A stretch of 64,000 bases of DNA. Origin: Centroberyx gerrardi (lineage: Eukaryota; Chordata; Actinopteri; Beryciformes; Berycidae). The translations under genes were made by a program, and so were the position numbers. The notes under the pieces are model-generated. The model was given only the letters and a program-made list of their open reading frames with translations, ran no database searches and was not told the DNA's origin. Shown piece by piece: positions 30,168 to 63,944 of the stretch. Each line of letters starts with the position of its first letter. The stretch's first letter is position 1. Where the stretch lies: NCBI RefSeq assembly GCF_048128805.1, contig NC_136004.1, forward strand, positions 24,991,333 through 25,055,332, given 5' to 3'.

Positions 30168-31706
30168 AGGAACGCTGATGCTCTGCTTCAGTCTCAGAGC
30201 TGACTTGTATTCATGAATAACTTTTCAGGTGTTTAAATAAATTTCAGGTGTTTCTTTTCATAATTTGCCATCATATATAAGTTGGCCAAAGAATGATGTA
30301 TGAGTGAAAAAAATCAATAAAGGGATTTAGTTGAACATGATGTTATTACCTGTAAGAAAAATGAATGGAACAAACAAATAAACAAAGAATAAATACATAC
30401 ATACAAGATAGATACATGGTGTGTATGGAAGTAGAACAAAATGGTTATTGTTTTTTTTAAAGAGGTGATCCAATTGGCATAGGCTATATATTATTTGTGC
30501 ACAACTAAACAAGTAAAATAAAATAACAGAGCTCTATAGTCTGTATAATTATTCTCCCCCTTAGCTTCATATGGGTAAACTGCCACATTGAAACGTTGTT
30601 CAACATTCCATATATTGTTATATATACATAATTTTTAGAGGTTTTGAACAAAAACTTTCATAATTGTTATAAATAATAAATAATTGTTACCCTATCACCA
30701 CTATATGCAAAAAAATATAGAGAATATAGCGGGTATCTTTTCTGTTTTTTTTTTACAGTCTGTGGGTTTTTCTGTTTAATTTTATAACAGAAGTCACTGG
30801 AGAAATTGGACATGAAAAGCTCAGACACAGGCTTATCACATCAAGTACTAGAAGGGCACTCGGAGAGCGCAGACCTCCGCCAAGGTTCGTGCTATTATTG
30901 CTTGTTCGTGAGTCGGATCCGGATCCGCTCCAAAAATTTAATGGGTTCTTCCTTGGCCCATGCTACACCCTTCCACGAAGTTTCATGAAAATCGGACCAG
31001 TAGTTTTTCCGTAATCCTGCTAACAGACAAACAAACAAGCGGCACCGAAAACAACCTCCTTGGCGGAGTTAACTATTCAAAGGAAGCCGTGGAATGTGGA
31101 TTCCTGAGACTGGGATACCCCGCCCCTCCTCCGCCCCTTCAGAAACATAATATAATATATAGAGAAATTGGGTCAATATGTTTACCGTTAAATTTCGTCA
31201 TTTGCATCACTGATATACAATTTTGACACTCGAGTCCACTTTGAGCTATTAACTTTTCTCCTTGTAAACAGGGGCAGGGTTGTGTGCGCTCGGTTCGAGA
31301 CGCGAGTCGCCCCGTCGTCGGGGTTATTTTGAGTTCTCGGGGTGGGTGTAGCTCTGACTCTGACCAATCAGCGACGCTTCCCAACACAGGAAGTTCCTGC
31401 TCTTTAGAGGTGCCTGCAGCCTACTTTTGTCAGCTGGTCTTTCCGATAGCTAACGTCAACTATCAAACAAGGCAGCAACAAGTTGAAGAGGGTTACTTAT
31501 TTCATAACAGTTTCGTTTTTAAATGAGCGAACCGAGGATTGTGAGTCGATGGCGCAAAGACGTCAAACTGTAACAAACCCGGACGTTAGCCGCAACTGCG
31601 TTTTCACACAGTTTAGCAAGCCTCATGAACGGGGGAGTTTTATTGCCTTAACGTTAGACAGATAGTTAGCTTGTTGGCTAACGTTAGCTATTTGTCTGGT
31701 AACGAC
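30168..31706. other. Intergenic: cfap251 3' UTR and mlxip promoter
   Basis: AATAAA at 30315-30320 is a likely cfap251 polyadenylation signal. A repeat copy at 30885-31075 is listed separately. From about 31240 to 31706 the sequence is richer in GC and CpG and likely holds the mlxip promoter and 5' UTR. The small open frames here are not supported as genes. Confidence 0.5.
30885..31075 (+). repeat. Interspersed repeat ending in an ACAA tract, copy 1
   Basis: It includes the conserved stretches GAGTCGGATCCGGATCCGCT, CCTTCCACGAAGTTTCATG and TTTTTCCGTAATCCTGCTAA, followed by ACAAACAAAC and CGGCACCGAAAAC. A second copy with very high identity lies at 49510-49702 in the same orientation. The short tandem ACAA end suggests the 3' end of an RTE-type LINE or a SINE that shares it; this was not tested. 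Confidence 0.7.
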
Positions 31707-40674: not shown

Positions 40675-40707
<33 letters not shown>

Positions 40708-43700
40708 TCGCGCTCTCTCGCTCTGTCTCGCTCACTCTCTCTCTCTCGCTCTCGCTCACTCTCTCTCTCTCTCGCTCTCTGTCTCGCTCGCTCACTCTCT
40801 GTCTCACCGGACCCGTCTGTTCGCCTCCCATTGCACACGCGGGCGTGAGGGATATTTTTTTTCCATGCCAAGAAGACGACCGGCTGAATTCCCAAAAAGA
40901 AGAACTAAAAGGGTTATTAACGTTATTCGGAATACAGCTGGGTTTCCGAGACTAGCAGATTAGCTGTATACAGGCTACTGTAGGTGCTAGTCAGTATCCA
41001 CTGAGTGGACTGAAAACGTTAATATTTACTTTTTAACTCTGACTCTGAATGTTTGCTCCCTCAATCCAGATTAATATTGAAAAATATTTTGTTATGTTGC
41101 AGTTTTTATAGTCTCTAAAGTTGGAGTAAATTGATAAAGGCCCATCTATTGGAATTGATTTTTGTTGCCTCAGTAGGCCTATATATAATTTATTATTGTA
41201 ACTAGGTGTGTTGTGCACATTTAGCTTTTATTCTAATTTTTATTTTATAAAATTGTATTTATTTTATTCCACAGGAAAGCTATATTTGTTAAGCTCTAAG
41301 CTGCTCCCAATAACCAAGCGTACTCTGCTATGGTTTAAGTTGTGTCTCTAAGAGAGAGAGTGGAATATGTTGCACATGTTGCCTGCCAATAAACAGTTGT
41401 CAATTCATGATACTTTCTCATCTCTTAATTTTAATACTTAATATACAGTGTTGTTAAGAATAGTGAAATAAATAAATAATGCTACATGATGAATAGAAGG
41501 CTTCAAATAGACCCCGTGATCGGTATCGGCCGATACTGCTTCCAGCGATCGGTGATCGGCCCCAAAAATCCTGATCAGAGCACCCTTACCCCAAATTATT
41601 TCTTTTCTCTTCAATTTTTTTGTCAACCACGCTTGCTAAATTAGTTAACATGTGAATACAAGTACTTCAGGGAGCTGGATCCAGACACTATCTATTTGTC
41701 AAAATGCTGTCATGTTTTCCCCCTGCCCTGCCTAGTAGCTGTGCCTCTCTGCCTTCCACAGCTCATGCAGGGAACGCGGACATGATCCAACCAGGACTGA
41801 TCCCCTTACAACCCAACCTAGACTTCATGGACTCCTTTGAACCGCTGCAAGGTAGCAATAAGTCACGACCTACAGTATATAGCTACAGTAGTACTGCGCA
41901 CACACTAATGGTGCACTCTTTTACAAGATCCAACCGCACATGTTCTAGTAACTCTACTACAGCAGTCTAACACTTAAAAAGTAGTGTGGTTTTACTAACC
42001 TCTAACTAACATAGACTCTTGTTCCAGACTTATTTCACAGCCTCCGTCAGCCCGTCTTCCCCTCTGTTTCCCCCACTGCATCATCTGTCACCTCTCTACC
42101 CAGCAGCAGCTCTCAGTCACAGGTAAACAGCAAAGCTTAGTCCCTAACTCACCCCACCATGATACAGAGGTTGTGCAAGCAGTGTTTGTTTTTTTCTGGA
42201 CATTAATCAAATTCAATTTCAGTTTGTGGGACAAATTATTAGAAATCACACCATGTCTTTTACCATTTTCAGGGTTAATTACACATAAACCTATGTACAG
42301 TGTCATTTTGTGAATGTTTTGCATTATTTTAACTATTTCAAAACAAAATAGGCCTATCCTAAAGACTAAATAGACATGCATTGTGCAACTGGCTGAATTG
42401 GGCAAATGGAAAGACAGAGGTGCTTGCACACATACTAATTCAGCTAATTAGACGAAGAAGTTTCTGTCCACACTGTCAAAGGCTTCCCCTTCTCATTAAA
42501 GGGTCAGGATTTAGGGTTAGTTACTTTAGGAAAATAATTGTTTGAAAAAGATACATTTTCTTCAGGTCAAATTTCCTTCCTTTCTCCAAAATGCAAACCA
42601 GTTATGAAAATGTAGGTAAACGGCAGCATCAATACTTGACAGACAGAAAAAACATAAAATGTATACATGTGTGTTATTAATTGATTCGTGTTTGCCTATA
42701 GTTACGTGCACATCGACCTCTGACATTATCATTGCTGACAAGTAAATAGGCTATAAAAAGGTTTTGGGATGTCCATTACAGTTGTGAAGCCTCATCTAGT
42801 TATGAGGTACCACAATCCTTTTAATAGACTTTAAAGACTTTAATCAGCTTGACCAGCCAAAAACAGGGAATTACTAGCTAATGTGAACTTTGCCTTACAC
42901 AGCTGCCGCTTTTCCTATATCATATTGCACTGGTATCAAAGGACTGTGTGTTTGTTCTGTTTTCCTTTTTTTTTTATCCCTTGCTAGGCCCAGTTACTGT
43001 CCTCCATGCACCTGTCAGCTGACCACATCTCCTCCCCCGGCCCCATGGCCAGTCAAACCAGTGGGACAGGCGGGGACGATTCTGCCTATGTGCAAAACTA
43101 CATGCCTCTCTTCTCTGGGCAGGTGACTTCCAGCGCTCAAGCAGGCGTTTCCTCAGTCTCTCAGTCCTTAGCCCATGCTCCGCTGGCACACTGCCTTCCA
43201 GGTCAAGGTATGGTGCCATCGCCCCTGGACGGTGCCTCAACACTGGATGAGAGTGGAGCGCCATCTGTGATTACACACACCGCTTCATCCACTGTCACGC
43301 CCAGCGACGCCGCCGCCACCTTTAGCCACGGCTCAGAGTACAGCTCCCTTTCCACACAACCTCCACCTCCACCATCCCACCTCCAGCCCCTGGCACCTTT
43401 GCCGGCCAACCCCCTCCAGCACCCTCAGACTTTTGCCCTGCCTCGCCCCATTCAGTCTTCCAGTACCAACAAAAACCGCCATGTGCAAAGGATTGTTCCT
43501 AACACCCTCCCCTCCCCTCACCTCATCCTCACAGGTCTGTTGTTTATCCCCAGATCAAGATATTTATTCTGTATCGAGAGAAATGTATTTTTGTTAGTTG
43601 TTTAGAAATGTAAATACTTGAAGGCTATTCAGATGTAGAGGTAAATATTGTTTGTTGTGGTACCGTACCAAGGCTGGCACCGCTGATAAAGAAACACCTA

Positions 43701-46700
43701 ATTGTCAAATAGTGTAAATGGGAATTTGTTTTCTTTGCACATTCCCCTGGGGAAAAAAATAGATTTACATATGTGTGTCACCACAAAGATCAGAGCATAG
43801 GGTCAGTGGAGCTGTGTCACTAACTGTTATTACCACAAGATAGCGCTCAAGCCTTTCTTTTTTCGTCTGCTAAACCACATGCAAAGAGGTGAAGGAAAAA
43901 TTCAGTATATATCAGGTAATGAGTCATCATTAGTTGGACACTCCTCCTGACTAATGATGTTTATTCCCTCAGCTCCTTTCCCAGGTCCCAATGCAGTGAT
44001 CGTTACACCCACATCTCTGAAAGGAGATGTGGTCCAAAACACAGGAGTGGTCATCGCTTCTTCTCGTCTTGGAGCGGTATGTTTTCAGCTGAGGCAATGC
44101 TGGCTTCATTGTTTTCTATTTTTTTTTAAGTATATTGGTTATTGAGTCACCATGGTTCTTGAAAAAATGAAAATTGACAATATAAATTATAACTTTGCAA
44201 CTTTGAGATCCCACCAAACTCAAGGTACGGGCTCATTTTGCTCTGATGTGTACAATTAATGCGAAGTGCTACCAACCATCTTTAGCTTTAAAATACATTT
44301 AAAATTCAACTACTAGTTGTCTCGAACCCAGTCAATTGTGTTAAGAGTTCATATTCGAATGCAGTGGTTCTCAACCAGTGGGTCACGACTCAAAAGTGGG
44401 CCACAGAGCCGTTCTAGTGGGTCGCAGATATTTTCCAGGGGAAAAAAAATCAGACTACATGAATTTCTGTTTGGTCACAGGATTTTGAAATGCGTCCAGT
44501 TGTAGCTTTTTAGCTATTTTTCCGGTTCTAGCTTCATGCACGACCAAAGTGCACTCGCATAACTTCAGAGCGTTGCAGCCGCCTTGCTCTATAAGCAGCT
44601 GGTCTTTAGCTAGCTGACAACACAATTCATGATATCCACAATGTCATCAGCTAGGTCTACAAGTTAACACAAGTATTAGCCCGAATATATTAAATATGTG
44701 TTTACTTGCATGGAAGACAGACAGGGTGAGAGACCTCTGTGTGTTGTATACAGTGAAGCACGAAACAAAGACGGCAGTTAGAAACTAAACAGTCAAGCCA
44801 CACACTCAACAAGTGTGTGGCATGACTTTTTTTAAATTTATTTATTTATTTTTTTAAAGAAACTTGCACAACCCGAAGACATCACAAAAAAAACATACCA
44901 ACTGCATGTACAATACAAGAACAGGCCCTTCATGCATCTTACTGTGTTGCACAATGTATTGTAAAATGAAAGAAAGCCCATACGCTGTCCAGTGACAGCG
45001 TGAGGAGGAGAACCCATGACATGTCAGATTTCATGAAACGACAGACTATGCATCTTATCAAGGCAAATGACTATTACATACTGCAACTTGCATGCGGAGG
45101 TTTGCTGGCTTCTGAGGGGTAAAGTGCTGTCATGCTTCCATGAACTGAACAGAAATTGCAGCTTTTCTCTCAGAAAACAACTCGCCTCTTGCTGATCTGT
45201 TTTACAGCGATATATGGCTGACACAGGCAGCTTATATTGTGGAATGTTTTTGAGCAGCTAAACATCTTGAATGTGTCTATGCAAGGAAGGGGACAATCCA
45301 TTTGAACAGGCAGATAAAATTGATGCATTCAAGAGAAAATTATTCGTTATTGTGGGAAAGTTGCGTTATGGAAGATTGCACGCTTCCCTGTGCTTGCTGC
45401 GAGGCACAACAGCTGGACACTGCACAGAAATACACTTAAGAAAATAATGAAGGCAAATCTTATGAAACTTCATCTACAACTACATCTTGGCAAGTTTTCA
45501 GACAAGACAACAAGTGGATCCGTTTGGAGTGGAGATTGAGAGCGGCACATTGACGAGCGACATGGAAAGCTCTCGTGTGACCGCTTATACTGCTGATATT
45601 CATATAGCTGCTCTGTTATTGTTCTGTGCTCCATTATTGTAAGTCCTGTGGTTGTAATGTTGTGTTAAATTGCTATAATGTGTCAATAATTACTATATTG
45701 TGTCAATAATTACTATTACTGACAGGCTAAATTGCACTGAATTCAGCAGAGATGTGTTTAGATCATTTTTTTACTGGATGTATTTTATTTGATTTCAGGG
45801 GTCTGCACCTCATTTCCTTTGCACTTCATGTTGCATGACATTTTCTTTGTACCACAATGGAAAAAAAAAAATTAGGCTAAATAAATAAATGAAAGATGAT
45901 GATTGATGTTTTGCTGTGTGTAATGGTGGTTTGGGTCACTGGTTGAGAACCACTTTTCAAAGAAATAGAAACAAAGAGTGAATCATTTCGACACCACAGT
46001 TAGTACTCTAACTGGTCTGATTCTGGATTTGGGCCTTCCCATATTTCTTATGTATTTACTTTCTACATTTTGTCTCTCAGCCTCCTGGATTTCATATCGT
46101 GTCTCAGACGCACAAGTCTCCCCAGCCGATTGTCCCCAAAGAAAAGACTTATTCTTCCAGCCGCAAGAACCAGAAACCCTCCTCTAGTGTTGGTGAGACA
46201 TTTTCCAAATAATTTTTTCCAGTTATTTGTCCACATGCACACACATGACATGATGCTGTCCATCTTGAAAATACAAAACACTAGGAGTTATAGAGAAACA
46301 CAAATGCATATCATTTATGGTGTGTTTTAAGACATACTACTACTTTCTGAGCTTGGAATTATAATCTTCTACCTGAGTTTATCGAGTTATCTACATATTC
46401 AGGATCGTTGAATGTTACTTTATGCTTGTGGTGTTGTATTTTTTTTAAAAGAACCTTAAAAAAAAAAAAAAAAAATTAAAACAACTGAAAGTACATAAGT
46501 TTTGCCTGCTTGTATGTCAAAGTTTTGATGCTCATTGAGCTGCACTCAGATAGAACCTCATAATTCCAAGCTCACGACTTGTTAAATATGTATTTTGTAT
46601 ATCATATCAGTGCACAATCGGCAAGGTTCAGGTCAAGGGTCACCGTGTGGGTCAGATCAAGTCCCGAGTCCCCAGTCGCCCCTCAGCAGCAGCAGTGGCG

Positions 46701-49700
46701 GCAGCAGTAACGCCCTGGCAAAGAATGAGCCAAACCAGGTGTGTGTGTGTGTGTGTGTTTGTGTTCACGTATTTAAGTGTATTTTAACGTAACACATTTG
46801 CATTTGTGATCTCTGCATCTTTGTGAACATTTTATTATTTTCTTGGTATACAGGGCTTTCACAGGCTTTGGAAATCCTTGAAAATTTTTGAATGAAACGA
46901 CAATTTAAAAGTTAATGAATATAGATGGAAAGCCTTGAAAGCACTTGAATTTGATCTGGAAAAAAAAAAAAGAAATGCATCCCTTGAATTTGATGCCTGG
47001 GCAAATGTGTAACCCTCTTTATAATATCGGTGCTATTGTTCCTTTTCTAAACACTCTAACATCTGACCCGGTCTCAATAAGCTTCTACATGTTGTCTGTT
47101 GTGTGACAGAGCCGGAGGGTGACCCACATATCTGCTGAGCAGAAGAGACGATTCAACATAAACATTGGCTTTAAAACACTCTGCAACCTGGTTCCCACCC
47201 TCAAGTCCCAGTCAAACGTAAGGCTTCATACTTGTCTTTCCTTTATATACTTTCTGTGGGAAAAGTAATGGGAAGCTGAAGTGAAATTGGTTGTTTTTTT
47301 TGTGGTTTGAATTGCTGTTTAAAGTATAAAAGGGTTGTGTCTGTAAAGGTATAGGGTTGTCCAAATTCAATAAAACAAGGAAACATTAAAAATTAAATAT
47401 CCAGCTTCATAAAACATCCATACAGATTCAGAAATTACTTTGGTGTGGCTGTAATCTTTACTTTTTTGGTTCATAGTTATCCTCCATGAGTTTAGAGTGC
47501 AAATAACATGTCAGTTTACTACCCCTGTGATTACTACACATATAATACTGGATATCTGCATTGCCTTCTCCAGTCCAACCATATTTATTAACTGTGCTCA
47601 TTCAGATCAGTAATGCAGCCACACTGCAGAAGACAGTCGAGCACATCGGGAAGCTCCAGCAGGAGAGGCAGCAGATGCTGGAGGAGGCCAAGAGACTGCG
47701 AGAGGAGATCGAGGAGCTCAACACCTCCATAAAGTGCGTTACTGCATCATATTTCTCTCCACTCTCTTCTGATGCACAGCCATGTATCATATCATGTCTC
47801 AACTCATGTCACATTTTATGCCACTGCTTAACCACAGCTTGTGTCAGGAGCAGCTCCCTGCCACAGGGGTGCCCATCACACGCCATCGCTTTGACCACAT
47901 GCGAGACAAGTTCGACGAATACGTGAAGAGCCGCACTCTTCAAAACTGGAAGTTCTGGATTGTATCCTTTTTAATCCAAGCGCTCTTGTAAACAACTCTT
48001 TATATATTAATGATACAGATTATACTGCAAGATCACATTTGGCCCTGATTTGGGAAGCTCATGTCTTTCGGGGTTCTTTAGAAGCTTTTCTTTAGATCAG
48101 ATTGCGAGATTAGATCCTCTTGCCGTGCGAAGCTTGCACCAGAATGTAAAAGTTACACAACTGAAACATTGTAAAGCTTAGAGTAAGCAGTCTGTATCAC
48201 TTTTGAAATGTTTGGTGTTTGGACACAAAAATGTTATACTATTAATGCACTTCAACTATTTTACCCGACAAACTGCATTTTAGAATGGAAAAGTACTTGG
48301 TTTGTTACTTGGTCCTGACCCAGGACATGGCCTGAAGCAAATCCAGCTATCAACAATGATTCAGTAGCCATGTATTTGTTATCATCAGCACTAATTATCT
48401 TTTACAGCCTTATATACACAGTAGATTCCTCAAGCAGTATCCAGTTACGTCAGGTCAGACCAGGGACTGTATTTTCAAAAACTTCCCATGGTAGAGGTGT
48501 TCATCATAGTCTATAATAGATTTTAGTCATTGCACATTTTTCAGTAAAGGCAAATCTCAAGGGAAAATAGAAAACAAAAGCAACAGCAGTTACAACAGTC
48601 AGGGGCTGCCTCAGGTGGTCAGGCAAGTTGCATTTGTCTCACCCCGCTGCGTAATCGACCCTTGACCGTCCGCTCCAGTTCAGCATCATTATCAAGCCTC
48701 TGTTTGAATCGTTCAATGGGATGGTGTCGACTACAAGCAAAGCAGAGCTGTGTCAGACCACGCTGCAGTGGCTCGACCGTCACTGCTCCCTTCCTGTGCT
48801 CAGACCGAGTAAGTAAAAACCTCTCCTTCTTAGACATGCACACACACACACACACACACAGACAACTTACCACGCCAGTTCACCTCTGCTATAGTTGTAA
48901 CTCTAATGAAATAGGCATCAATATATGGAACAAGTGCAACACAGCAGGGAAATTTTGCTACATGCATAAGTGTTAGATCACTACTGTACAGAAATCACTT
49001 ACGCCAGACTTTTCTCTTTACTTATCTATCACTAATCTACACCTTTTCTTTCCTTTCTCCTATTCTGGTGTAGTGGAACCATGACGAGAGGAAATTTAAA
49101 CACGCATCACAAATGCTTTCCTGAAAATAATACATCTCTGGAATCCCTCGAAGGAGGGAACAGTGTTGATCAGTCTTTCCGACTAGTGTTTTGTCCTCCC
49201 ACTTGTTCTTAATAATATGCCTTTGTTCCTGTGTCGGTCTGCCTCTAACAACTCTGCCATAGAAGGGATGTGACGATATATAATGTGACGTCAGAGATTT
49301 CTATCATGCACTCACTGATTAGCAGCCTACTGGAAGTTGAATCTGTGATGCTGCAGAAAATTGCAAACGGCATTAACAAGCTTATCACTCCAGCTTTTTC
49401 AGTCCAGGGTTGTGCAGTGCACACACAAGGATAAATTATAAGCCCTGTAGCTTCAAAATAATAGGTTTTTACAGATTTACTTTACTTTATTGCCACATCA
49501 ACTAGACAGTTGTTATTATTGCTTGTTCATGAGTCGGATCCGGATCCGCTCCAAAATTTAATGGGTTCTTCCTTGGCCCATGTTACACCCTTCCACGAAG
49601 TTTCATGAAAATCGGGCCAGTAGTTTTTCCGTAATCCTGCTAACAGACAGACAAACAAACAAACAAACGGCACCGAAAACATAACCTCCTTGGCAGAGGT

Positions 49701-50209
49701 AATAACACAAGATAACACAACAAAACAGACTCAACAAGCCAGCAAACAAACAATAACAAACATCAACAAAACAAGACACACTAAAGGGTAATGGATAATA
49801 AGTAAGAGAGCAAACATCAGATACAAATACAGTGATTTTAAAAAAGCAAAATGAAAATTACAATTCATGGACAAAATTTAAGTTAAAATCCAGTACAATG
49901 TAGTAGGCTGGAAAAAAGTGACTGGTGCATTGGAGAGAGACTAGATCTCAGCTGAAGTGCTTTAAGTCATTCAGAAAACAGTTGCATAGGTGCTTTTTCT
50001 GAACCTAGAGGTGCGGGTCTGTAGTGACCGAAGTCTTGTAAAATAGTCAGGTCACGGCTGACATACTGTGGTTAATTTGTTTTTCAGTGGTGCTCAGTAC
50101 CCTTCGCCAGCTAAGCACAAGCACATCCATTCTTAATGACCCGTCCCTGCTGCCTGAAGAAGCCATCCAGGCGGTCACAGACACCCACGAGCCTTGTGGA
50201 GACTTGTAG
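31707..50209 (+). CDS. mlxip: MLX-interacting protein (MondoA), bHLH-Zip glucose-sensing factor, 18 exons, about 878 aa
   Basis: Exons 31707-32023, 36066-36172, 36983-37068, 37338-37427, 37544-37585, 39219-39284, 40081-40321, 41762-41851, 42028-42122, 42988-43534, 43973-44076, 46081-46192, 46611-46738, 47110-47217, 47606-47733, 47838-47961, 48679-48808 and 50088-50209 join to 2,637 nt (878 codons plus stop; human about 919 aa). MondoA pairs with MLX, rests at the mitochondrial surface and cytoplasm, and on glucose-6-phosphate binding enters the nucleus to activate TXNIP and other targets through carbohydrate response elements. The Mondo conserved regions are in exons 1-5 (SGHFMVSSPHIEHPPKKGYD; LTKLFECMTLAYSGKLVSPK; WRDKIRLNNAIWRAWYMQY). 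Activation segment DPLFDMDVLMSEFSDTLFST is in exon 7. The bHLH-Zip is in exons 14-15 (RRVTHISAEQKRRFNINIGF) and the C-terminal dimerisation/cytoplasmic-retention domain in exons 16-17. Intron 1 is 4 kb. The exon 6 donor lies in a perfect hairpin. Confidence 0.96.
34490..35748. mobile_element. Non-autonomous hAT element, 1,259 bp, in mlxip intron 1
   Basis: The left end TAGGGCTGCAGCTATCGATT and right end AATCGTTTCAGCCCTA are inverted relatives. A perfect 8-bp target duplication CACTTAAC lies at 34482-34489 and 35749-35756. Subterminal regions are packed with TAATCGAG/ATCGAT motifs on both sides. No transposase frame was recognised. Confidence 0.9.
34917..34955 (+). repeat. Poly-G and GT simple repeat
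   Basis: A GTGTGTGTGG run is followed by about 11 G and then further GTATGTGTGTGTG. It lies inside the hAT element at 34490-35748. Confidence 0.8.
37716..38331. mobile_element. MITE with about 68-bp terminal inverted repeats, TTAA flanks, 616 bp
   Basis: The left arm 37716-37783 and right arm 38264-38331 are inverted copies with about two mismatches, starting AGGATAAGGCTGGTG. TTAA is present on both sides (37712-37715 and 38332-38335). This fits a piggyBac-like duplication, but a TA duplication (mariner-like) fits the same bases. There is no coding capacity. It sits in mlxip intron 5. Confidence 0.85.
38574..39138. mobile_element. Inverted-repeat element of unknown type, about 565 bp
   Basis: The left end AAGGCTGCTTCACACATAGC is matched by the inverted right end GCTGTGTGAACGCAGCCTT with a few differences. 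AAAGCGCT-type motifs recur inside, and a CATTTCTCAACT segment is duplicated around an A-run near 38960-39000. No clear target duplication was found. It lies in mlxip intron 5 directly right of the TTAA element. Confidence 0.55.
39262..39330 (+). repeat. 26-bp perfect inverted repeat across the mlxip exon 6 splice donor
   Basis: Bases 39262-39287 are perfectly complementary to 39305-39330, with a 17-base loop. The left arm is the last 23 bases of exon 6 plus the first three intron bases (GTA). In the pre-mRNA the 5' splice site would be inside a long stem. The loop itself contains a small ACACT/AGTGT pair. Confidence 0.95.
40460..41588. mobile_element. Non-autonomous hAT element, 1,129 bp, in mlxip intron 7
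   Basis: The ends are TAAGGGTGCTCCGATCG and the inverted TGATCAGAGCACCCTTA. A perfect 8-bp target duplication CCCCAAAT lies at 40452-40459 and 41589-41596. GATCGG motifs are concentrated near both ends. A long CT-rich microsatellite lies inside. No transposase frame was found. Confidence 0.92.
40636..40805 (+). repeat. Interrupted CT/GT microsatellite
   Basis: About 170 bases of CTCTCT broken by CG, with a GTGTGTGTGTGTGTGTGTCG block in the middle. It produces spurious open frames rich in Ser-Leu on the plus strand and Glu-Arg on the minus strand. Confidence 0.9.
44362..45955. mobile_element. Decayed hAT element with transposase remnants, 1,594 bp, in mlxip intron 11
   Basis: The ends CAGTGGTTCTCAACCAGTG and the inverted CACTGGTTGAGAACCACTT are inverted repeats. 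The flanks TTCGAATG (44354-44361) and TTCAAAGA (45956-45963) match at six of eight bases, a degraded target duplication. Around 45313-45400 a broken plus-strand frame reads KIDAFKRKLFVIVGKLRYG, resembling the middle part of ZBED5/SCAND3-type hAT transposases. Stops and frame changes show it is dead. Confidence 0.7.
46349..46573. mobile_element. Small inverted-repeat (MITE-like) element in mlxip intron 12
   Basis: GAGCTTGGAATTAT at 46349-46362 is inverted exactly at 46560-46573. The similarity continues inward with mismatches (TTCTACCTGAGT against TTCTATCTGAGT). The A-rich middle includes an 18-base A run. Target duplication is unclear. Confidence 0.5.
49510..49702 (+). repeat. Interspersed repeat ending in an ACAA tract, copy 2
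   Basis: Near-identical to 30885-31075 in the same orientation, with a longer ACAAACAAACAAAC tract. It lies in the last mlxip intron. The high similarity of the copies suggests recent amplification of this family. Confidence 0.7.
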
Positions 50210-52720: not shown

Positions 52721-52951
52721 TTGATATTGATATTTTTATTTCTTAAAAGTTCATTTTGAATAAATATTACTTGGTTATCAGACACTGATAACAGTTGCAT
52801 GACATCTGCAAAGCAACCTCCAGAATGAGTTTATATTAATATCCAGGTAACACAGTTACATTGAATTATGACTTGGCACTCCAAATGTGCAATAATTTAA
52901 AACACATGCCCTATAAAATTTATAAATACAGTATTCATGCCATACAGTAAA

Positions 52952-55588
52952 TCAAAGGTTATGTTTTCCCAGCCATTTTACAAAGAGCTGCAGCAGACAC
53001 TTGACATAACGAGGGTTGTCAACGTCATTATTAAAGCTGGGGGCGTTGCAGTCTGTACAGGTGATGTTATCGTGACCGGACATCAGCCCCCCCAGATCGA
53101 TGCTGTACTGGCCGATGACACTGATGTTTTCTGGCATTCCCTGGGTCTTGCTGGATACCTGGGTCATGTGGCAGCAGAAGGTGGCGAGGTGCTGGGCCGT
53201 GAGGAGCTGCTGCGGCTGCGGCTCCTGCAGCCCGGTCCGCTCCATCACGTTCATGTCCACGCAGGAGTTGGTCGGCACCACCGCAGGGTTACTCTGCCAG
53301 ACGGGACAGAAGACAAACAGCTGGTCATAATTAACACCCGGCACCAGTGCAAAGCTTTGTGCATTGATTGCTTTGTGCACACTACTGACATTTATCATCT
53401 AACATGGGGAAATCCCAAATGGAGGCCTGTAGGCTGTCTGCCCAGGCGGATGCACAATACAGCATCATGTAAATCCACATAAGCTGTTTTAATTGGCGGA
53501 TACCCTTACAAAAAAAGTCACGTGAAAACCCACATGTCAGTGCTTTTTGGACACATGTTGGGTTTTTCTTTGTGGTAGGTGAGGCTGTGTAGAATAGGTA
53601 GGCTGTTATGTCTTGTCTCTAAAATCTGCTTTTCCTGATGTTTGTCCCATATTCTGTTCTATGGCTGATTGTTCATCAGTTAGATCTAGGGTTAGGGTTA
53701 GGCTCATTCTCTGTAAAGTCCTTTGAGACATGCATGTGATTAAGGGCTATAAATAAACAAAGCTGAACTAGGGATTTTAATGATTAATCGACGATCGATT
53801 AATCACCGTTAATAATTTGATCGATCAAGCATATATTAATCGATAATGTACGTCATGGGCTATTTCTCATTTTTTTCGGAAATGATTTACCGCCACAAGG
53901 GCGCAATTTAACTTTCGCCGCCTATACAGAGGAAGAAGAAAGCCAAGCAAGCGGGCGGAAGCATTACACCCGAAAAGACAACAGTGTTCATTGTAAACAT
54001 CGTAATACAAAGTTGAAATACAGCACCTCTACAAGCACAATGAAAGAGAATGCATTCCCCCGGCTGGTGAAGTTGGCGCGACACTATTTGTGCCTCCCAG
54101 CGGATGGACTGACTGTCACCAGGCTGCGCACTGGACTCATCCCTATACATAAATCCCTAATACATAAACTGTGGCAGCGCCACAATATCGGCACGGCCGG
54201 CACAACATAATCTAATTATCTAATGTGCGCATCACGTCATGTCTGTCATTTGGCGATGCAGTAGCTCTGTACTCAACCTGACAGTCCGTCTCCCGTTCTG
54301 AAAACGTTCGTAAAAAAATATAAAATTCCACAGTTTCTCCTAACTCGCATGTGTTGTAACGGTAAAGAGTAACTTGATACTTTTCAGTCGGACAATTCTA
54401 ACGCTGCTCAACACTCAGAAAGTTAACATGAGTGCAGTGCAGAGACTTCATTGCATATTCCACCAGCTGGGTTCCGTTGGACACAATGTAAAGACAATTT
54501 AAAATAACGAACCCTAAAGAAAGTACATTTTCAGCCTGTGGGAAATACTGACGTCCGTTGTCAGGGGTCCTGACTCTTTTGAATTATGCTTGGTTGAGTA
54601 ACTTGTTGAGTAGGCCTAAAGACAGGTGTAAAAACATGTATTTTGTATTTTCTATGTCATGACTGTAGAGGCTCATGCACACCTTCAGTTTCTTGTAGAC
54701 AGGTGCGGAGGAAATGTCCATAGGCAAGAGAAGAGATAATTCCCGCACACTGTCTTTTTACTTGCAAAAAACTTTATTACTGATACAACGTTTCGGTCCT
54801 TAGACCTTCATCAGGTAAAACTGAGGAACAAAGAACATTCCAGACAGATATAGCCAACACCTCCTCAGGTGAGGCCAATCAGGGACCATGAGCTGTCAGG
54901 CAATCAGTCCCACAGCATTTAGCCAATCAGAAGGCACAACCCACCATCAAAAATGACATTTCACAATCTATGATGGACGGCAACTACACTATTTTCTATG
55001 TCAAGAGCTGTTTTTTTACATAATGATTAATCGATTAATTAGTCATTAACATGACCGACGATCGATTAAGGAAATTTCTGAAAATTTGCATCCCTAACCT
55101 GAACTTTAAAAAAAAGTCACGTTGTATTCTGACATCACATATGTTTTTACTTCAGATGTGAAAATTTTAACGTGAACATTTTTTCAGGTTTTAGCCTGCC
55201 AGATATGACAATACTTGTTTCACATGTGAAACCCTAATTTCACATGCAGAGAGAGAGTTCACAGGTGAAAATGTCATTTTCACATATAGGAGAAAGGGAA
55301 ATTTCACATGTCCACATAGGCTATATGAAAACCTACATGTGTCCAAAAAGCATATGTGCTTTGAATTCACATGCGGGTTTTCACATGCGGCTAAGGTTAT
55401 ATTAATCAAAACATAGCTCACCAGATGGGTCAGAGTGTCCTCTGTCAGCTTCTGAATCTCCGAAATCATTATTTTCTCCCGGCCATATGTTGTGCGTGTG
55501 TTTGTAATAAACCCACTGGCTGGTTGGGCAGCAAGGAAGGCCAGGAGGATGAAGACTGCTGAATGAAAAAACACAGATTAGATTTGTT

Positions 55589-55626
<38 letters not shown>

Positions 55627-55773
55627 TAATCACCAGCCATCATCACTCAAGAGGTATTGAGCAACTGTTTGCCTGCAGAAGTTCAAAAGTTGTCTCTCTC
55701 TCTCTCTGTCTAAGACAAGAACAGCCAGACTCTCAAATCAGACTTCAAGATGCTTACCAGCACGCAGATCCAT
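52952..55773 (-). CDS. Secreted four-helix cytokine, IL-6 superfamily (LIF/M17/IL-31-like), 3 exons, about 164 aa
   Basis: Minus-strand exons 55758-55773, 55422-55558 and 52952-53293 join to 495 nt (164 codons plus stop). Exon 1 encodes only MDLRA. Exon 2 completes a signal peptide (AVFILLAFLAAQPASG) and one helix-like stretch (EKIMISEIQKLTEDTLTHL). Exon 3 encodes the rest, with six Cys (NSC, FCCH, ITCTDC, YVKC), two N-glycosylation sites (NIS, NIT) and a final LLQLFVKWL helix. A very short first exon, a second ending after helix A and a long third is the LIF/OSM layout. The C-x-x-C then Cys-Leu-Leu spacing also recalls LIF and fish M17. The gene sits tail to tail with mlxip, where mammals have IL31, also an IL-6-family cytokine of 164 aa. 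The exact member is not settled. Such ligands act through gp130-type receptors and JAK/STAT. The exon 3 acceptor is chosen for its long pyrimidine tract and phase. A hAT element fills part of intron 2. Confidence 0.75.
53769..55096. mobile_element. hAT element with transposase C-terminus remnant, 1,328 bp
   Basis: The left end TAGGGATTTTAATGATTAAT and right end TTTCTGAAAATTTGCATCCCTA form short inverted repeats (TAGGGAT/ATCCCTA) with ATCGATTAAT motifs inside both. The flanks AGCTGAAC (53761-53768) and ACCTGAAC (55097-55104) agree at seven of eight bases. At 54049-54150 a plus-strand frame reads AFPRLVKLARHYLCLPA, matching the dimerisation region at the end of hAT transposases. A segment around 54730-54950 with CAACGTTTCGGTCCTTAGA looks like a separate nested repeat. 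It lies in intron 2 of the cytokine gene. Confidence 0.75.
55591..55623. repeat. CA microsatellite
   Basis: About 16 CA units in the first intron of the cytokine gene, roughly 30 bases upstream of the exon 2 acceptor in transcript orientation. Confidence 0.95.
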
Positions 55774-57289: not shown

Positions 57290-57294
57290 GAGAG
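57290..57294. other. Target site duplication, left copy
   Basis: GAGAG directly precedes the TG of the left LTR and is repeated at 63945-63949 directly after the right LTR. A 5-bp duplication is usual for Ty3/Gypsy integrases. Confidence 0.9.
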
Positions 57295-58321
57295 TGTCAC
57301 GGGGATGCCCGATGCCCTATATTAACATACACCGCCAAACATTACCTGCATTAACTTTCATTTCTTTACCATAGATTACATCTTGGCGCCACTAAGAGAT
57401 GTTAGTTAAGTGTTACTGTGTTTTGGTTTTGATTGTTAGATTCTCGCATTTTCATTGTAGTCTGTGTCTCACTGCAGTGTTCCAGCCATACTGGGAGGCC
57501 TACCGGCATTGGCGTTATTTAACATTCCCGCCTGCATTGACGCAATTCCGCAATCTTTATACATTATATAATTAATTCAAAAGTTAAATAAAGAAGCGAA
57601 GACATTTCATTATTTATCATGTTTAATGAAACAGTTTGCAGATTACTCTTACCCCGTGTATTTTTTCTTCTCCTGCACTTGGCAGTTCCAGTTTTAGACC
57701 CAGAGTGCGAAACTGAGGCGGAGGGGTCCAACCTCATTTGTAGAGAGGGGTGGCAGTGGAATGTGCCAAGTGTGGTTGAGATAGGGGGCGTCCAAATTGA
57801 TAAAAGTATACATCTATATTTTTATGCATCAGACTGATGATAGGGTCATTGCAATTTATTATGTGTGTCACATAGTTATATCAATGTAATAATAATTGTA
57901 TTGAATCAGACCCTTGATGTATTGTTGCATTAATTGAAGACTCATTATGTTTTGTCTTCATAGGAGGGGCTTAGAGTATATAGGAGGCCAGCACCCATGG
58001 GTGCCCGCTCACTCTGCCTCGCTCCAGCCAGGAATTGGGACCAGGACTGCTGGCCTAATAGCATAGGGCCCACGTCAGGGGCTTAGCCTATGTTTTGGTT
58101 TATAGCTTAGTTCTGCCTTTGTTATTTTTGTTGTTTTCTTGATTCATTATCTATTTCTTTATTTTTCTTTTCAAAACATTTTGAGTATTTTCCATTTTTG
58201 TGTGTTTTTTTACAGCTCATCTTGTAAATACACCTGGTTTCTCCACAATAAATCCCACGTGGTGGTATTGAAGCCTGCCTCAGCCTGTGCCTTCCTCTTC
58301 TACCCACTCGCCATCCTAACA
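57295..58321 (+). repeat. 5' LTR, 1,027 bp
   Basis: It begins TGTCACGGGG and ends CATCCTAACA, giving the usual TG...CA boundaries. A TATATA box at 57977-57982 and AATAAA at 58247-58252 suggest U3 up to about 58000 and a polyadenylation site near the end. U3 contains a 72-codon open frame at 57619-57837, listed separately. Confidence 0.95.
57619..57837 (+). CDS. Small ORF inside the 5' LTR U3, 72 aa, unknown
   Basis: The frame opens with ATG and a hydrophobic stretch (VCRLLLPRVFFLLLHLAVPV) that could act as a signal peptide. A segment with two Cys and WQWNVPSV follows, then a stop. It is repeated in the 3' LTR with one amino-acid change (Arg to Cys near residue 14). Identity between LTRs is expected from recent insertion and does not itself prove selection. 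No family was recognised. Confidence 0.3.
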   Translation: MFNETVCRLLLPRVFFLLLHLAVPVLDPECETEAEGSNLICREGWQWNVPSVVEIGGVQIDKSIHLYFYASD

Positions 58322-58323
58322 CT

Positions 58324-58336
58324 TGGTGTCAGAAGT
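58324..58336 (+). other. Primer binding site, tRNA-Leu-like
   Basis: TGGTGTCAGAAGT begins two bases after the LTR. It is complementary to the 3' end of vertebrate tRNA-Leu ending in ACTTCTGACACCA, as recalled from family knowledge. It would prime minus-strand synthesis. Confidence 0.8.
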
Positions 58337-58352
58337 AACGGGTCTTGTTGGG

Positions 58353-61300
58353 ATGCCTCCGAAGAAGAATCAGCAGCAGCAGCAGATGGGGCCAGAGGCT
58401 GACGATGGAGCGGCTGGGGGTCCACTGGAAGAAGGCCTCCATTCCACCGTCAACACAGAGGTCGCTGCTGAGTCTACCCTCACAACCCTGGCAAGAATGT
58501 TTGAAAGTTTTATGCATCTCCAAATGGAGAGGGACAAGAGGCAAGACAAAGAGGCTGCAAAGCAGGAGCAGAAATTCAGTGTGCTTAACCACCAGATTAC
58601 TCAGCTCCAGTTGGACCTAGAGTCGGCGAGGGCTGGTCGGCCTACTCCACGGACAGGAACTGTGCCAGCTGGGGAACCCAAATTGGTGAGGCTAGAAGAC
58701 ACTGATGATATTGAACATTTCCTGACTACATTTGAGCGTCTGGCAGCAGTCTACAACTGGCCAGGTCAAGAGTGGGCTATCCGCCTCATCCCGCTGTTGA
58801 CTGGTAGGGCCAGGAGTGCCTTTGTTGCCATGGACGCCACCCAAGCTGTGAACTATGAGATGTTGAAAGATGCAGTGTTGAGAAAGTATGAAATCAACAG
58901 AGATACGTACCGTCAGCGGTTCCGCTCCCTTGATGCCCCGCTCGAAGAGTCTCCTCAGGAACTGTACACCCGCCTCAAAGACTTATTCTGCAAATGGGTG
59001 GAGTATGAGGCCTGCACCAAGGAGCAACTGATGGAGAAGCTGGTCCTGGAACAGTATCTCAGAGTGTTGTTCCCGGAAGTGAGAGCCTGGGTCAGAGAAC
59101 ACAACCCAGGGACTGCCGCAGATGCTGCCAAGCTGGTTGACACATACGTGACTGCTCACCGAGGACCAGGGGCCTATCGCTACGCAGGACAACTACGACA
59201 AGCCAGGGGTGAGTCTGTTGGGTTGGGGAAAGGTGGTGGTTCGCAGAAGTACTCTCCCAGTCAGCCCAGGTTCACCAAGCCCCTAGTGGTAGAATCCTCC
59301 AAGTATAGGTCTCAGTCAGGCAGTATGTCTCAGTCAGACAGTAAGGCTGAAGTTGTCTGTTATAACTGTGGGGAAGTGGGTCATACTCGTCCAGTCTGTC
59401 CTGTCAAAAAGCCTAACGCTACCAGTTTGTGCTATGTCCCCAGACCTGAGGTCATTTCTCTCTCTGAGTCTCCTGAGCCACTAACAGCTACTGTTTTGTT
59501 AAATGGCAAGCCTTTGTCTGCACTATTAGACACAGGCTGTGGACAGACACTTGTCCAGGCTGAATTCATCGCCAGGCAGACATGGAATATGGAAGAGACA
59601 GTGCCAGTTATCTGTGTTCATGGGCATAGTGTAGATGTCCCTACTGCTGAAGTCTACATCGAGGTTCACAACCAACCTTACCTGATGAAAGTTGGGGTAG
59701 CCACTGAGTTACCATATCCTATTTTGTTGGGAACAGATCTGCCTATCTTGCTAGACTTGATCCAAGACACAAAAAGGCGGTTGTGTGGAGTTGTGACACG
59801 GTCTAAGGCAAGGCAGGGCACCATTCCACCAGTCCCACAGGAAACAGTCTCAGCTGAGGTAGATCCTGTAGTACAGCTCATTACCCCTGTCTTCATTCAG
59901 CCAACTCCTGTCATGCCTGTCCCTGCTTCTGTGACCACTGCAACACCAGAGGCAGAGGTTAGTGATAGTCAAGTTGCTGATATGCTTGTTGCTGATGAGT
60001 CAGTTGCCCATGCACCAGCTACCAATCCAGACACGTTGCAGTTTTTGCCATTTTATGAGGAGGAGGTAGATGGGATGCCCACAGTCACACAAGAAGACAG
60101 GTGGACCAGACGTAGAGAGCAAGTGGGGGAAACAATAGCTGAGTCAGTTGACCAGTCAGACCAAGAAGTCGAGGCTCCAGAGCTATCTGCTGCAGATGTC
60201 CCTTTCCCTGTTGACCTGGCCCAAAAGCAGAGAGAAGATCCCAGCCTGATGGAGTGTTTTAGGCAGGCAGAGGAGGTCACTGGTGGCAGTACTCTTAAGG
60301 ACTGTTTTGTGCTGGAGAATGGACTGTTGTATAGACAGTCAGAATATGGCAAGCAGCTTGTCCTCCCACAGGTGTGTAGAGGGGAAGTGCTGAGGGTAGG
60401 CCATACAATCCCTTGGGCTGGCCATTTAGCCTTCATGAAAACATATATGCGCGTAGCCAGGAGATTTTATTGGCCAGGAATGTATACTGAAGTCAAGGAG
60501 TACATTAAAACATGCCCAGAATGCCAGCTCACTGCAGGAAAGCAGACAGCCCCTGTACCTCTCATCCCACTCCCTGTCATTAGCACTCCGTTTGAGCGTA
60601 TCGGTGTAGACATTGTTGGCCCAGTGGAGAGAAGCCAGTCAGGCAACAAGTTTATTCTGGTAATTTGTGATTACGCTACCAGATATCCAGAAGCTTTTCC
60701 CTTGAGAGAGGTGACTGCTAAGCAGATAGCAACAGCAATGCTAAGGTTTTTCTCCCAGGTAGGCATCCCCAAGGAGGTGCTCACAGACCAGGGCCCAAAT
60801 TTCATGAGTCGAACACTCTCCCAAGTTTATCAGCTGTTAGGGATAAAAAGAGTGAGAACCACCCCTTACCACCCTCAGACTGATGGCTTGGTCGAGCGTT
60901 TTAATCAAACCCTCAAAGGCATGCTGAGGAAGTTTGTTTCAGACACTGGCAAAGACTGGGACAAGTGGCTGCCGTTCTTGCTTTTTGCATATCGTGAGGT
61001 TCCACAAAGCTCTACTGGTTTTTCACCCTTTGAGCTCCTTTATGCCCATCAGGTCAGAGGTCCCCTGGATGTGCTGAGAGAGACCTGGGAGGAGTCGGAC
61101 AAGCCCCAGAGCATGAACATCATTTCCTATGTCCTGAAAATGAGAGAGCGGCTCATGAACACCACAGCCATGGCCACAGGGAACCTGCTGAAATCGCAAG
61201 CAAGACAAAAAGAGTGGTATGATCGTTCAGCCCGGAAGAGGAGCTTGGAACCTGGTGAGGAAGTCCTGTTGCTTTTGCCAACGTCAGACCACAAGCTGTT

Positions 61301-62948
61301 GGCTAAGTGGCAGGGCCCTTATCAGGTCAAGCAGAAGATGGGTCCAGTGACCTACCAGGTATACATACCGGACCGAAAGAAGCCCCTTCAGACCTTCCAC
61401 ATTAACATGCTGAAGAAATGGCACCCTCGCAATGTCCCTGCAGCGCCTGCAGTCCATGCTCTCTTCATTCGCGCTGTACAGGAAGAGGAGGAGCCTGTGG
61501 AACAGTATCTGCCTTGTCAAGAGGAGGGTAAGAGACTTGATTTAGACCATCTAGCAGATGAGAGGAGAAAAGAGCTCCTTCAGATCTTACCACTTCACCT
61601 CTTTGTTGAGTCCCCAGGCAAAACCAGTGTTATGTACCATCACATCACCCTGAAGGATCCAACACCCCTCCGGCAGCCAGTGTACAGAGTCCCGCTGGAG
61701 ATGATGAGAGAGCTGGGGGTGATCGAGCCTTCCTCCAGTGAGTGGAGCAGCCCAATCATCCTTGTCCCTAAGAAGGATGGCACACTGAGGTTCTGCCTGG
61801 ACTTCAGGAAAGTCAATGGGGTCAGTAAGTTCGACCTGTATCCCATGCCCAGGGTGGATAACCTGGTGGAGAGGCTGGGCAGCGCCAGCTTCATCAGTAC
61901 CCTTGACCTGTGTAAAGGCTACTGGCAGGTTCCCCTTACTGAGGAGAGCAAAGAAATCACAGCCTTCAGAACCCCCTTTGGTCATTTTCAGTTCACTGTC
62001 CTACCATTTGGTCTTCACGGGGCTCCAGCAACATTTCAGAAAATGATGGACAAAATCCTGGGGGGCACTGAATCCTTCGCTGCAGCATACCTAGATGACA
62101 TTGTCGTGTACAGTGGTAGCTGGGAGGAACACCTGTGTCATCTAAAGGAGGTGTTGTCACGCATCAAAGAAGCTGGACTGACAATTCGCCCTGACAAGTG
62201 CTCCCTGGCAAGAGAGGAGGTCCAGTACCTAGGATTTGTGCTGGGAAAAGGTATGATCCGGCCTCAAGTGGGGAAAGTGGAAGCTATCAGGTCAGCTGAA
62301 CGCCCCAGGACCAAGTCCCAAGTAAAGTCCTTTATGGGCCTTGTTGGTTGGTACAGCCGTTTCATCCCCAACTTGTCAGCACAGGCAGTGGCCCTGTCGA
62401 ACCTCACCAAAAAGAACCAGCCCAACAAGGTGCGGTGGACCAAGGATTGTGAGGAAGCATTTCAACGCTTAAAAAATTGTCTGTGCACTGAACCACTTCT
62501 TAAGAGCCCTGACTTCAACCAGACCTTTACGGTTCAAACAGATGCCTCTGAGTTTGGAATTGGAGCGGGACTGTTGCAGGGAGAACCAGAGAACCTCCAG
62601 CCGGTTGCCTACATAAGCAGAAAGCTTAAACCACATGAACTTAGGTACTCAGTTGTGGAGAAAGAATGCCTGGCCATCAAGTGGTCCCTGGACTCTCTAC
62701 GATATTACCTGCTGGGAAGACTGTTCTTCCTAGAGACTGACCACCGGGCATTGTCATGGCTGAAGACCATGAAAGATACCAACTCCAGGATCACAAGGTG
62801 GTTCCTTGCCTTGCAACCCTTCGACTTTGAGGTGCGGTACAGGAAGGGTAAGGAGAACTGTACTGCTGACTATCTCTCCAGGACGCCACAAGTGTCGTCT
62901 CCAGAAGGGGGGGGGAATGTCACGGGGATGCCCGATGCCCTATATTAA
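58353..62948 (+). CDS. Gag-Pol polyprotein, single ORF, 1,531 aa: Gag-PR-IN-RT-RNaseH
   Basis: The first ATG after the primer site gives MPPKKNQQQQQ. Gag occupies roughly residues 1-350, with a coiled-coil-like start, a retrotransposon gag core (about 110-270) and a CCHC knuckle from residue 336 (CYNCGEVGHTRPVC). An aspartic protease motif LLDTGC has its Asp at 393. Integrase follows: an HHCC zinc region (CPECQ), Asp753 (GVDIVGP), Asp812 (LTDQGPNF) and Glu848 (GLVERFNQ), a DD35E triad, then a GPY/F-like module (WQGPYQV). Reverse transcriptase comes after, with YLDD at 1246-1249, and RNase H last (QTDAS, Asp1397; TDHRALSWL). No stop or frameshift interrupts it, and gag and pol are in one frame. 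The stop lies 31 bases inside the 3' LTR. An in-frame TTG start further upstream is less likely than this ATG. Confidence 0.95.
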   Translation: MPPKKNQQQQQMGPEADDGAAGGPLEEGLHSTVNTEVAAESTLTTLARMFESFMHLQMERDKRQDKEAAKQEQKFSVLNHQITQLQLDLESARAGRPTPRTGTVPAGEPKLVRLEDTDDIEHFLTTFERLAAVYNWPGQEWAIRLIPLLTGRARSAFVAMDATQAVNYEMLKDAVLRKYEINRDTYRQRFRSLDAPLEESPQELYTRLKDLFCKWVEYEACTKEQLMEKLVLEQYLRVLFPEVRAWVREHNPGTAADAAKLVDTYVTAHRGPGAYRYAGQLRQARGESVGLGKGGGSQKYSPSQPRFTKPLVVESSKYRSQSGSMSQSDSKAEVVCYNCGEVGHTRPVCPVKKPNATSLCYVPRPEVISLSESPEPLTATVLLNGKPLSALLDTGCGQTLVQAEFIARQTWNMEETVPVICVHGHSVDVPTAEVYIEVHNQPYLMKVGVATELPYPILLGTDLPILLDLIQDTKRRLCGVVTRSKARQGTIPPVPQETVSAEVDPVVQLITPVFIQPTPVMPVPASVTTATPEAEVSDSQVADMLVADESVAHAPATNPDTLQFLPFYEEEVDGMPTVTQEDRWTRRREQVGETIAESVDQSDQEVEAPELSAADVPFPVDLAQKQREDPSLMECFRQAEEVTGGSTLKDCFVLENGLLYRQSEYGKQLVLPQVCRGEVLRVGHTIPWAGHLAFMKTYMRVARRFYWPGMYTEVKEYIKTCPECQLTAGKQTAPVPLIPLPVISTPFERIGVDIVGPVERSQSGNKFILVICDYATRYPEAFPLREVTAKQIATAMLRFFSQVGIPKEVLTDQGPNFMSRTLSQVYQLLGIKRVRTTPYHPQTDGLVERFNQTLKGMLRKFVSDTGKDWDKWLPFLLFAYREVPQSSTGFSPFELLYAHQVRGPLDVLRETWEESDKPQSMNIISYVLKMRERLMNTTAMATGNLLKSQARQKEWYDRSARKRSLEPGEEVLLLLPTSDHKLLAKWQGPYQVKQKMGPVTYQVYIPDRKKPLQTFHINMLKKWHPRNVPAAPAVHALFIRAVQEEEEPVEQYLPCQEEGKRLDLDHLADERRKELLQILPLHLFVESPGKTSVMYHHITLKDPTPLRQPVYRVPLEMMRELGVIEPSSSEWSSPIILVPKKDGTLRFCLDFRKVNGVSKFDLYPMPRVDNLVERLGSASFISTLDLCKGYWQVPLTEESKEITAFRTPFGHFQFTVLPFGLHGAPATFQKMMDKILGGTESFAAAYLDDIVVYSGSWEEHLCHLKEVLSRIKEAGLTIRPDKCSLAREEVQYLGFVLGKGMIRPQVGKVEAIRSAERPRTKSQVKSFMGLVGWYSRFIPNLSAQAVALSNLTKKNQPNKVRWTKDCEEAFQRLKNCLCTEPLLKSPDFNQTFTVQTDASEFGIGAGLLQGEPENLQPVAYISRKLKPHELRYSVVEKECLAIKWSLDSLRYYLLGRLFFLETDHRALSWLKTMKDTNSRITRWFLALQPFDFEVRYRKGKENCTADYLSRTPQVSSPEGGGNVTGMPDALY
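62903..62917 (+). other. Polypurine tract
   Basis: AGAAGGGGGGGGGAA ends exactly where the 3' LTR begins, the position required for the plus-strand primer. It overlaps the end of the pol reading frame. Confidence 0.9.
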
Positions 62949-63944
62949 CATACACCGCCAAACATTACCTGCATTAACTTTCATTTCTTTACCATAGATT
63001 ACATCTTGGCGCCACTAAGAGATGTTAGTTAAGTGTTACTGTGTTTTGGTTTTGATTGTTAGATTCTCGCATTTTCATTGTAGTCTGTGTCTCACTGCAG
63101 TGTTCCAGCCATACTGGGAGGCCTACCGGCATTGGCGTTATTTAACATTCCCGCCTGCATTGACGCAATTCCGCAATCTTTATACATTATATAATTAATT
63201 CAAAAGTTAAATAAAGAAGCGGAGACATTTCATTATTTATCATGTTTAATGAAACAGTTTGCAGATTACTCTTACCCTGTGTATTTTTTCTTCTCCTGCA
63301 CTTGGCAGTTCCAGTTTTAGACCCAGAGTGCGAAACTGAGGCGGAGGGGTCCAACCTCATTTGTAGAGAGGGGTGGCAGTGGAATGTGCCAAGTGTGGTT
63401 GAGATAGGGGGTGTCCAAATTGATAAAAGTATACATCTATATTTTTATGCATCAGACTGATGATAGGGTCATTGCAATTTATTATGTGTGTCACATAGTT
63501 ATATCAATGTAATAATAATTGTATTGAATCAGACCCTTGATGTATTGTTGCATTAATTGAAGACTCATTATGTTTTGTCTTCATAGGAGGGGCTTAGAGT
63601 ATATAGGAGGCCAGCACCCATGGGTGCCCGCTCACTCTGCCTCGCTCCAGCCAGGAATTGGGACCAGGACTGCTGGCCTAATAGCATAGGGCCCACGTCA
63701 GGGGCTTAGCCTATGTTTTGATTTATAGCTTAGTTCTGCCTTTGTTATTTTTGTTGTTTTCTTGATTCATTATCTATTTCTTTATTTTTCTTTTCAAAAC
63801 ATTTTGAGTATTTTCCATTTTTGTGTTTTTTTTTACAACTCATCTTGTAAATACACCTGGTTTCTCCACAATAAATCCCACGTGGTGGTATTGAAGCCTG
63901 CCTCAGCCTGTGCCTTCCTCTTCTACCCACTCGCCATCCTAACA
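62918..63944 (+). repeat. 3' LTR, 1,027 bp
   Basis: Same boundaries and length as the 5' LTR; six substitutions distinguish them. TATATA is at 63600-63605 and AATAAA at 63870-63875. The last 31 bases of the gag-pol ORF lie within its left end. Confidence 0.95.
63242..63460 (+). CDS. Small ORF inside the 3' LTR U3, 72 aa, unknown
   Basis: Copy of the frame at 57619-57837 with one residue changed and one silent change. Here it lies downstream of pol within the full-length transcript, a position used by accessory genes in some retroelements. Coding status is unproven. Confidence 0.3.
   Translation: MFNETVCRLLLPCVFFLLLHLAVPVLDPECETEAEGSNLICREGWQWNVPSVVEIGGVQIDKSIHLYFYASD

Follow-up and report, generated by a model that had tools for sequence, protein, structure and literature searches.

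A probable LIF-type cytokine gene and its likely diverged neighbour in the mlxip-clip1 interval of a beryciform fish, where mammals have IL31

IL-31 is an accepted member of the IL-6 family, and its receptor consists of IL31RA plus OSMR. In LIF, CNTF and OSM, the helix-D FxxK site has a receptor role (LIFR binding); CNTF carries the FxxK...G helix-D pattern too, and LIF has the residues QG after its phase-0 intron. Several genes of the family lie among ohnologous neighbours, IL31 with BCL7A, SETD1B and ORAI1, CTF1 with BCL7C, SETD1A and ORAI3, CLCF1 with TBC1D10C, and LIF/OSM with TBC1D10A. NF2 and UQCR10 are further neighbours of human LIF/OSM.

IL-31 drives itch, according to one report (PMC10971254). 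One source describes the cytokine as reported from mammals only (PMC13203501) and another lists it as “unknown in fish” (PMC4929537). A further source places an annotated il31ra next to il6st in gar, striped catfish and cavefish, and gives the gene as missing from there in two groupers and a puffer (PMC9222667). For the horse, the published gene order around IL31 is PSMD9, WDR66, BCL7A, MLXIP, IL31, LRRC43, B3GNT4, DIABLO and CLIP1 (PMC6402180). Among the matches listed in our literature search there was no fish IL-31 and no cytokine beside mlxip; subscription work, notably on the trout IL-6 family, lay outside its scope. The mammal-only reports and the il31ra pattern in fish, as these sources present them, make an IL-31 link of the gene pair described below worth testing.

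The window, the whole stretch of 64,000 nucleotides of Centroberyx gerrardi that was analysed, contains a gene (gene A) that the original prediction had described as a three-exon gene lying tail to tail with mlxip, its product having a signal-like start, two sequons and six Cys. This description is confirmed from the spliced ORF, which lies on the minus strand, encodes 164 aa and is interrupted by two GT-AG introns of phases 1 and 0 (positions are those of the window):

55758..55773, minus strand: gene A exon 1, 16 nt, encoding MDLRA plus one base, phase 1; donor GTAAGC
55422..55558, minus strand: gene A exon 2, 137 nt, signal peptide and putative helix A, ending in phase 0; acceptor TTCATTCAG, donor GTGAGC
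52952..53293, minus strand: gene A exon 3, including the stop, putative AB loop and helices B-D; acceptor CTGGCAG
52735..52740, minus strand: candidate poly-A signal AATAAA of gene A, by pattern only

Of seven donor candidates listed in the 2 kb upstream of exon 2, the exon 1 donor is the best (6/7). Exon 3 carries all six Cys (residues 62, 91, 92, 130, 133 and 150) as well as both N-glycosylation sequons (residues 107 and 127), and the N-terminus is signal-like as judged by eye. Gene A is intact and encodes a small secreted glycoprotein. It also has the exon plan of LIF-type genes that had been proposed for it, with a tiny first exon and phases 1 and 0; the fuller order of short first exon, phase-1 intron, helix A in exon 2, phase-0 intron and helices B-D in exon 3 is found as well, the helices being predicted ones. 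Intron 2, in phase 0 after putative helix A, is placed as in the M17 gene of this fish (RIY before it, KATQG after it) and, by eye, as in clcf1 (DTY, then LSYLG). The proposed LIF/M17-like Cys pattern held in part: a CxxC is present, as is a Cys where putative helix D begins, and gene A has none of the Cys that LIF and M17 carry before helix A.

The codon score is weak coding support for gene A: of 363 noncoding ORFs, 0.6% scored at least as high as exon 2 and 0.8% at least as high as exon 3, alternative frames within these exons matched or exceeded the values, and the exons of the known gene M17, used as a control, did no better than 4% and 30% of the noncoding null. The hexamer AATAAA at 52693 (plus strand) and 52735 (minus strand) is compatible with two convergent genes, in a window where it occurs 128 times against 69 expected. 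When the 164-aa product was searched against the 778.9-Mb assembly of the same fish, no second copy was found, the matches being its own exons 2 and 3 and two chance matches (E 2.8 and 8.5). In a helix-moment test, which is weak in general, exon 3 contained three of the best four amphipathic stretches and exon 2 the remaining one, a score equalled in 1.7% of 300 shuffles. An AlphaFold model of exon 3 alone, made from the single sequence without an alignment, had a mean pLDDT of 36 and was disregarded. By eye, intron 2 also holds an apparent DNA transposon (about 53770-55105) with TAGGGAT-type inverted ends and a short transposase-like ORF (53821-54210).

The chromosomal neighbourhood of gene A can be compared with that of mammalian IL31 through the following features of the window:

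10384..11244 (approximate), minus strand: psmd9, partial, named by eye; PDZ_6 E 0.0021, below the cut-off
22226..29276 (approximate), plus strand: cfap251 (wdr66), named by eye; a flank gene of the mammalian IL31 block
31629..50206 (approximate), plus strand: mlxip, from ORFs and from C-terminal exons placed by eye; convergent with gene A
57292..63214, plus strand: LTR retrotransposon between gene A and a second gene, B (see below), given as the outer limits of identical 300-nt direct repeats

The gene that we take to be mlxip, and the end of its last coding exon near 50206, were read by eye against MLXIP; because mlxip, on the plus strand, stops there, it and gene A are convergent. Two mlxip ORFs and two cfap251 ORFs gave no Pfam family above cut-off. 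A VPS9-domain gene (VPS9 E 1.8e-24) also lies to the left of gene A, and between it and cfap251 there is, by eye, an open 433-codon frame of a pogo/jerky-type transposase (19393-20691, plus strand). The 100 kb to the right of the window contain clip1 (CAP_GLY E 5.6e-25, with a 95% match to a CAP-Gly stretch), and the right flank further includes a gene with a PSP domain (6.3e-13) that we take to be zcchc8, rsrc2 (named by eye), kntc1 (Rod_C E 2.6e-25) and a GPCR that we take to be HCAR-like (7tm_1 E 3.8e-41). Genes that flank IL31 in the mammalian 12q24.31 block, several of them named by eye in the fish, also delimit the fish interval at either end, and the synteny proves stronger than first claimed, with psmd9, cfap251 and mlxip on one side and clip1, zcchc8, rsrc2 and kntc1 on the other. 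A tblastn search with the human protein found no diablo in the window or the right flank; the gene is on contig C6 (G000:C6:23981358-23983310), and the interval has therefore been rearranged. No bcl7a, lrrc43 or b3gnt4 was noticed among the longer ORFs listed, a search that short exons would escape. The LTR retrotransposon, which has a long gag-pol-like ORF (58320-62948), looks young.

Gene B lies about 9.6 kb beyond gene A on the same strand, just right of the window, and two of its exons were placed:

G000:C8:25057674-25057813 (L011:2342-2481), minus strand: gene B exon 2, 140 nt, ending in phase 0
G000:C8:25056708-25057091 (L011:1376-1759), minus strand: gene B exon 3

A 16-nt first-exon candidate (MPFTQ) was dropped, 0.82 such being expected by chance. 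Exon 3 opens with ESQG, the QG following the phase-0 intron as in the KATQG of M17. Helix D of gene B begins FNRKEMGYRIL, the FxxK...G pattern of LIF, OSM and M17, its FxxK (FNRK) is correctly placed in the family alignment, and this helix resembles that of CNTF. The local alignment of gene B with LIF is collinear from helix A to helix D (z 3.3 with BLOSUM62, 2.6 with BLOSUM45); Smith-Waterman z values were 3.1/4.0 against OSM and 2.1/2.3 against CLCF1, and at chance against the M17 of the same fish (0.4/0.3). In global alignment of exon 3, the score against LIF was equalled by 0/500 and 3/3000 shuffles, and those against OSM, CLCF1 and M17 by 31, 44 and 160 of 3000, the M17 score being weak. 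None of 192 unrelated ORFs of 100-160 aa equalled gene B against LIF (best 42 versus 56). On a four-sequence profile of LIF, OSM, CLCF1 and M17, gene B scored 13.6 bits, reached by 0/300 and 0/3000 of its own shuffles (maximum 7.4), a score to be read beside the 16.3 bits obtained by one of 300 IL-31 shuffles. When 264 kb were searched in six frames, exon 3 of gene B in unspliced form reached only E 0.11, ranking below an mlxip coiled-coil (E 0.014) and not far from unrelated ORFs (0.25-0.33). Pfam named no family for gene B, and against IL-31 it was at chance in both local and global alignment. A genome search returned gene B only, with no further copies. Genome searches with Pfam CNTF and with human CNTF gave no match, a null of no weight for the question of gene B being CNTF. 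Overall, a LIF-type cytokine gene probably occupies the IL31 interval in this fish.

For gene A, sequence kinship to LIF, OSM, CLCF1, M17 or IL-31, which the original prediction had called weak, was not detectable by local or global alignment, profile or Pfam. Smith-Waterman alignment with all seven comparators gave no similarity (z -1.2 to 0.7), global alignment of exon 3 gave z -0.6 to 0.9, and the score of -0.6 on the LIF/OSM/CLCF1/M17 profile was as high in 128/300 and 1354/3000 shuffles. Genes A and B show no relation to each other in either local or global alignment. Pfam gave no family for gene A, only a chance bacterial match (E 0.16), its best matches among PDB sequences were those expected by chance, and one scan of viral contigs with exon 3 found no homologues. 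As a control, two IL-31 sequences were themselves at chance against LIF (z -1.5 to 1.2, local and global), and IL-31, although an accepted family member, was at chance against OSM too (local and global); human IL-31 gave a marginal signal against CLCF1 (z 2.6/3.0 local, 2.0 global). On the LIF/OSM/CLCF1/M17 profile the two IL-31 sequences were equalled by 21/300 and 8/300 shuffles, slightly better than gene A, so that the control is an imperfect excuse. The IL31 profile PF15209 found nothing real in the genome (best E 2.97) and matched neither gene A nor gene B, while human IL-31, the control, was matched at 2.5e-57.

Other members of the family lie elsewhere in this genome. The best genome match of Pfam LIF_OSM was on contig C2 (20.7 bits, E 0.17, below the curated cut-off), and the gene found there (L005), once spliced, was over the cut-off for Pfam CNTF (E 2.7e-5) and just under it for LIF_OSM (E 1.4e-4, 22.5 bits versus 23). 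Its exon 3 alone brought up OSM, CLCF1 and LIF among 10 PDB sequences (E 0.56-1.1), beside a potassium channel, and the gene is clearly related to LIF, OSM and CLCF1 in pairwise comparison (z 7.4 to 9.5). On these similarities it is taken as the M17 of this fish. By eye, it lies about 6 kb from coiled-coil exons resembling a TAO kinase gene; NF2 and UQCR10 were not found in the 100 kb around it (G000:C2:15822666-15922665). A human CLCF1 query located clcf1 on contig C16 (54% identity over residues 58-165), where a pattern search nearby found no first exon. Gene A as CLCF1 is ruled out by this separate clcf1, and, with M17 on C2 and clcf1 on C16, gene A is an additional gene. Pfam PRF had no genuine match in this genome (best E 1.73), and human IL31RA gave 16 matches, the best on C2 (E 2.3e-6, 36% over about 99 aa).

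We regard gene A as rather probably a four-helix cytokine that belongs to the LIF/CNTF branch of the IL-6 family and has diverged strongly; it stands in tandem with the LIF-type gene B, whose diverged neighbour it most likely is. Sequence comparison, taken by itself, would neither place gene A in the family nor pick A or B as the IL-31 orthologue. A small secreted protein unrelated to cytokines, placed beside gene B by chance, would agree with the lack of detectable similarity to gene B or the tested family members and with best Pfam and PDB matches at chance level; it would leave unexplained the M17/clcf1 exon plan, the cytokine length and the position on the same strand beside a LIF-type gene, and IL-31 is likewise at chance against LIF and OSM, which together make such a protein rather unlikely. 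A chance ORF, or a gene in decay, is quite improbable as an account of gene A: the codon score fails to single out the right frame and no orthologue was seen, but the three exons have good splice sites and together form a single stop-free frame that opens with a signal-like sequence, and their codon scores are in the top 1% of noncoding ORFs. An identity with fish M17 (LIF), or with a genome-duplication copy of it, could appeal to the Cys resemblance only and is hardly credible, as gene A has no similarity to M17 (z 0.7/0.4) and the M17 gene sits on contig C2, a location that excludes gene A as M17 itself.

The pair A and B fills the MLXIP-CLIP1 interval where mammals have IL31. The fold, receptors and function of gene A are inferred. 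Both products would be secreted ligands of gp130/LIFR/OSMR-type receptors, signalling via JAK-STAT. The FxxK site in helix D would let B bind a LIFR- or OSMR-like chain, and A, which lacks FxxK and has a different Cys set, may use a changed receptor pair. How the two genes came to the interval bears on the origin of IL-31. The bony-vertebrate ancestor might tentatively be given a LIF-type cytokine at MLXIP-CLIP1, of which IL-31 would be the mammalian descendant and A and B the fish co-orthologues, a reading that we hold possible but doubtful. The A/B pair and IL31 may share descent, as judged from position alone, and this becomes somewhat less probable because il31ra is described as missing from its usual place in three teleosts (PMC9222667). 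The two genes might instead be lineage-specific newcomers, a LIF-type gene having duplicated and transposed into mlxip-clip1 in ray-finned fish while mammalian IL31 arrived independently. Neither gene matches IL-31, and diablo, which is beside mammalian IL31, is on contig C6 here, both in agreement with such arrivals; but two independent arrivals of IL-6-family genes in one interval are less economical than one old resident, and genome searches with A or B yield no close source copy, so that neither is a recent copy. We consider separate arrivals unlikely. Were the shared-descent account true, IL-31 would be the fourth whole-genome-duplication sister of LIF/OSM, CTF1 and CLCF1 rather than a mammalian novelty, and fish il31ra would gain its missing ligand. 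With a cytokine pair at the IL31 position there is a definite candidate for the ligand, and the origin of IL-31 can be put to a direct test; an old origin can be tested through the pair, which is not in itself a proof.

Gene A combines features of several known systems. With LIF, OSM and M17 (PF01291) it has in common the three-exon plan and the phase-0 intron after helix A, as well as a CxxC after putative helix C; it differs in lacking both FxxK and a Cys before helix A, and its sequence has no detectable similarity to theirs. Gene B stands nearer to these genes through its QG after the intron, its FxxK and its collinear alignment with LIF. The CLCF1/CNTF/cardiotrophin branch differs from gene A in that no similarity to CLCF1 is found, and shares with it the tiny first exon, whose MDLRA start is presumably identical to the first five residues of human CLCF1. 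IL-31 differs in number, with two genes at the fish interval versus one in mammals. Like IL-31, gene A encodes a small secreted protein, of 164 aa, which we take to be the length of the human IL-31 precursor as well; by eye, both seem to have one Cys in the AB loop and another where helix D begins, and both seem to have a short CD loop that bears a sequon after helix C. Finally, gene A shares with IL-31 the interval itself, next to MLXIP and before CLIP1.
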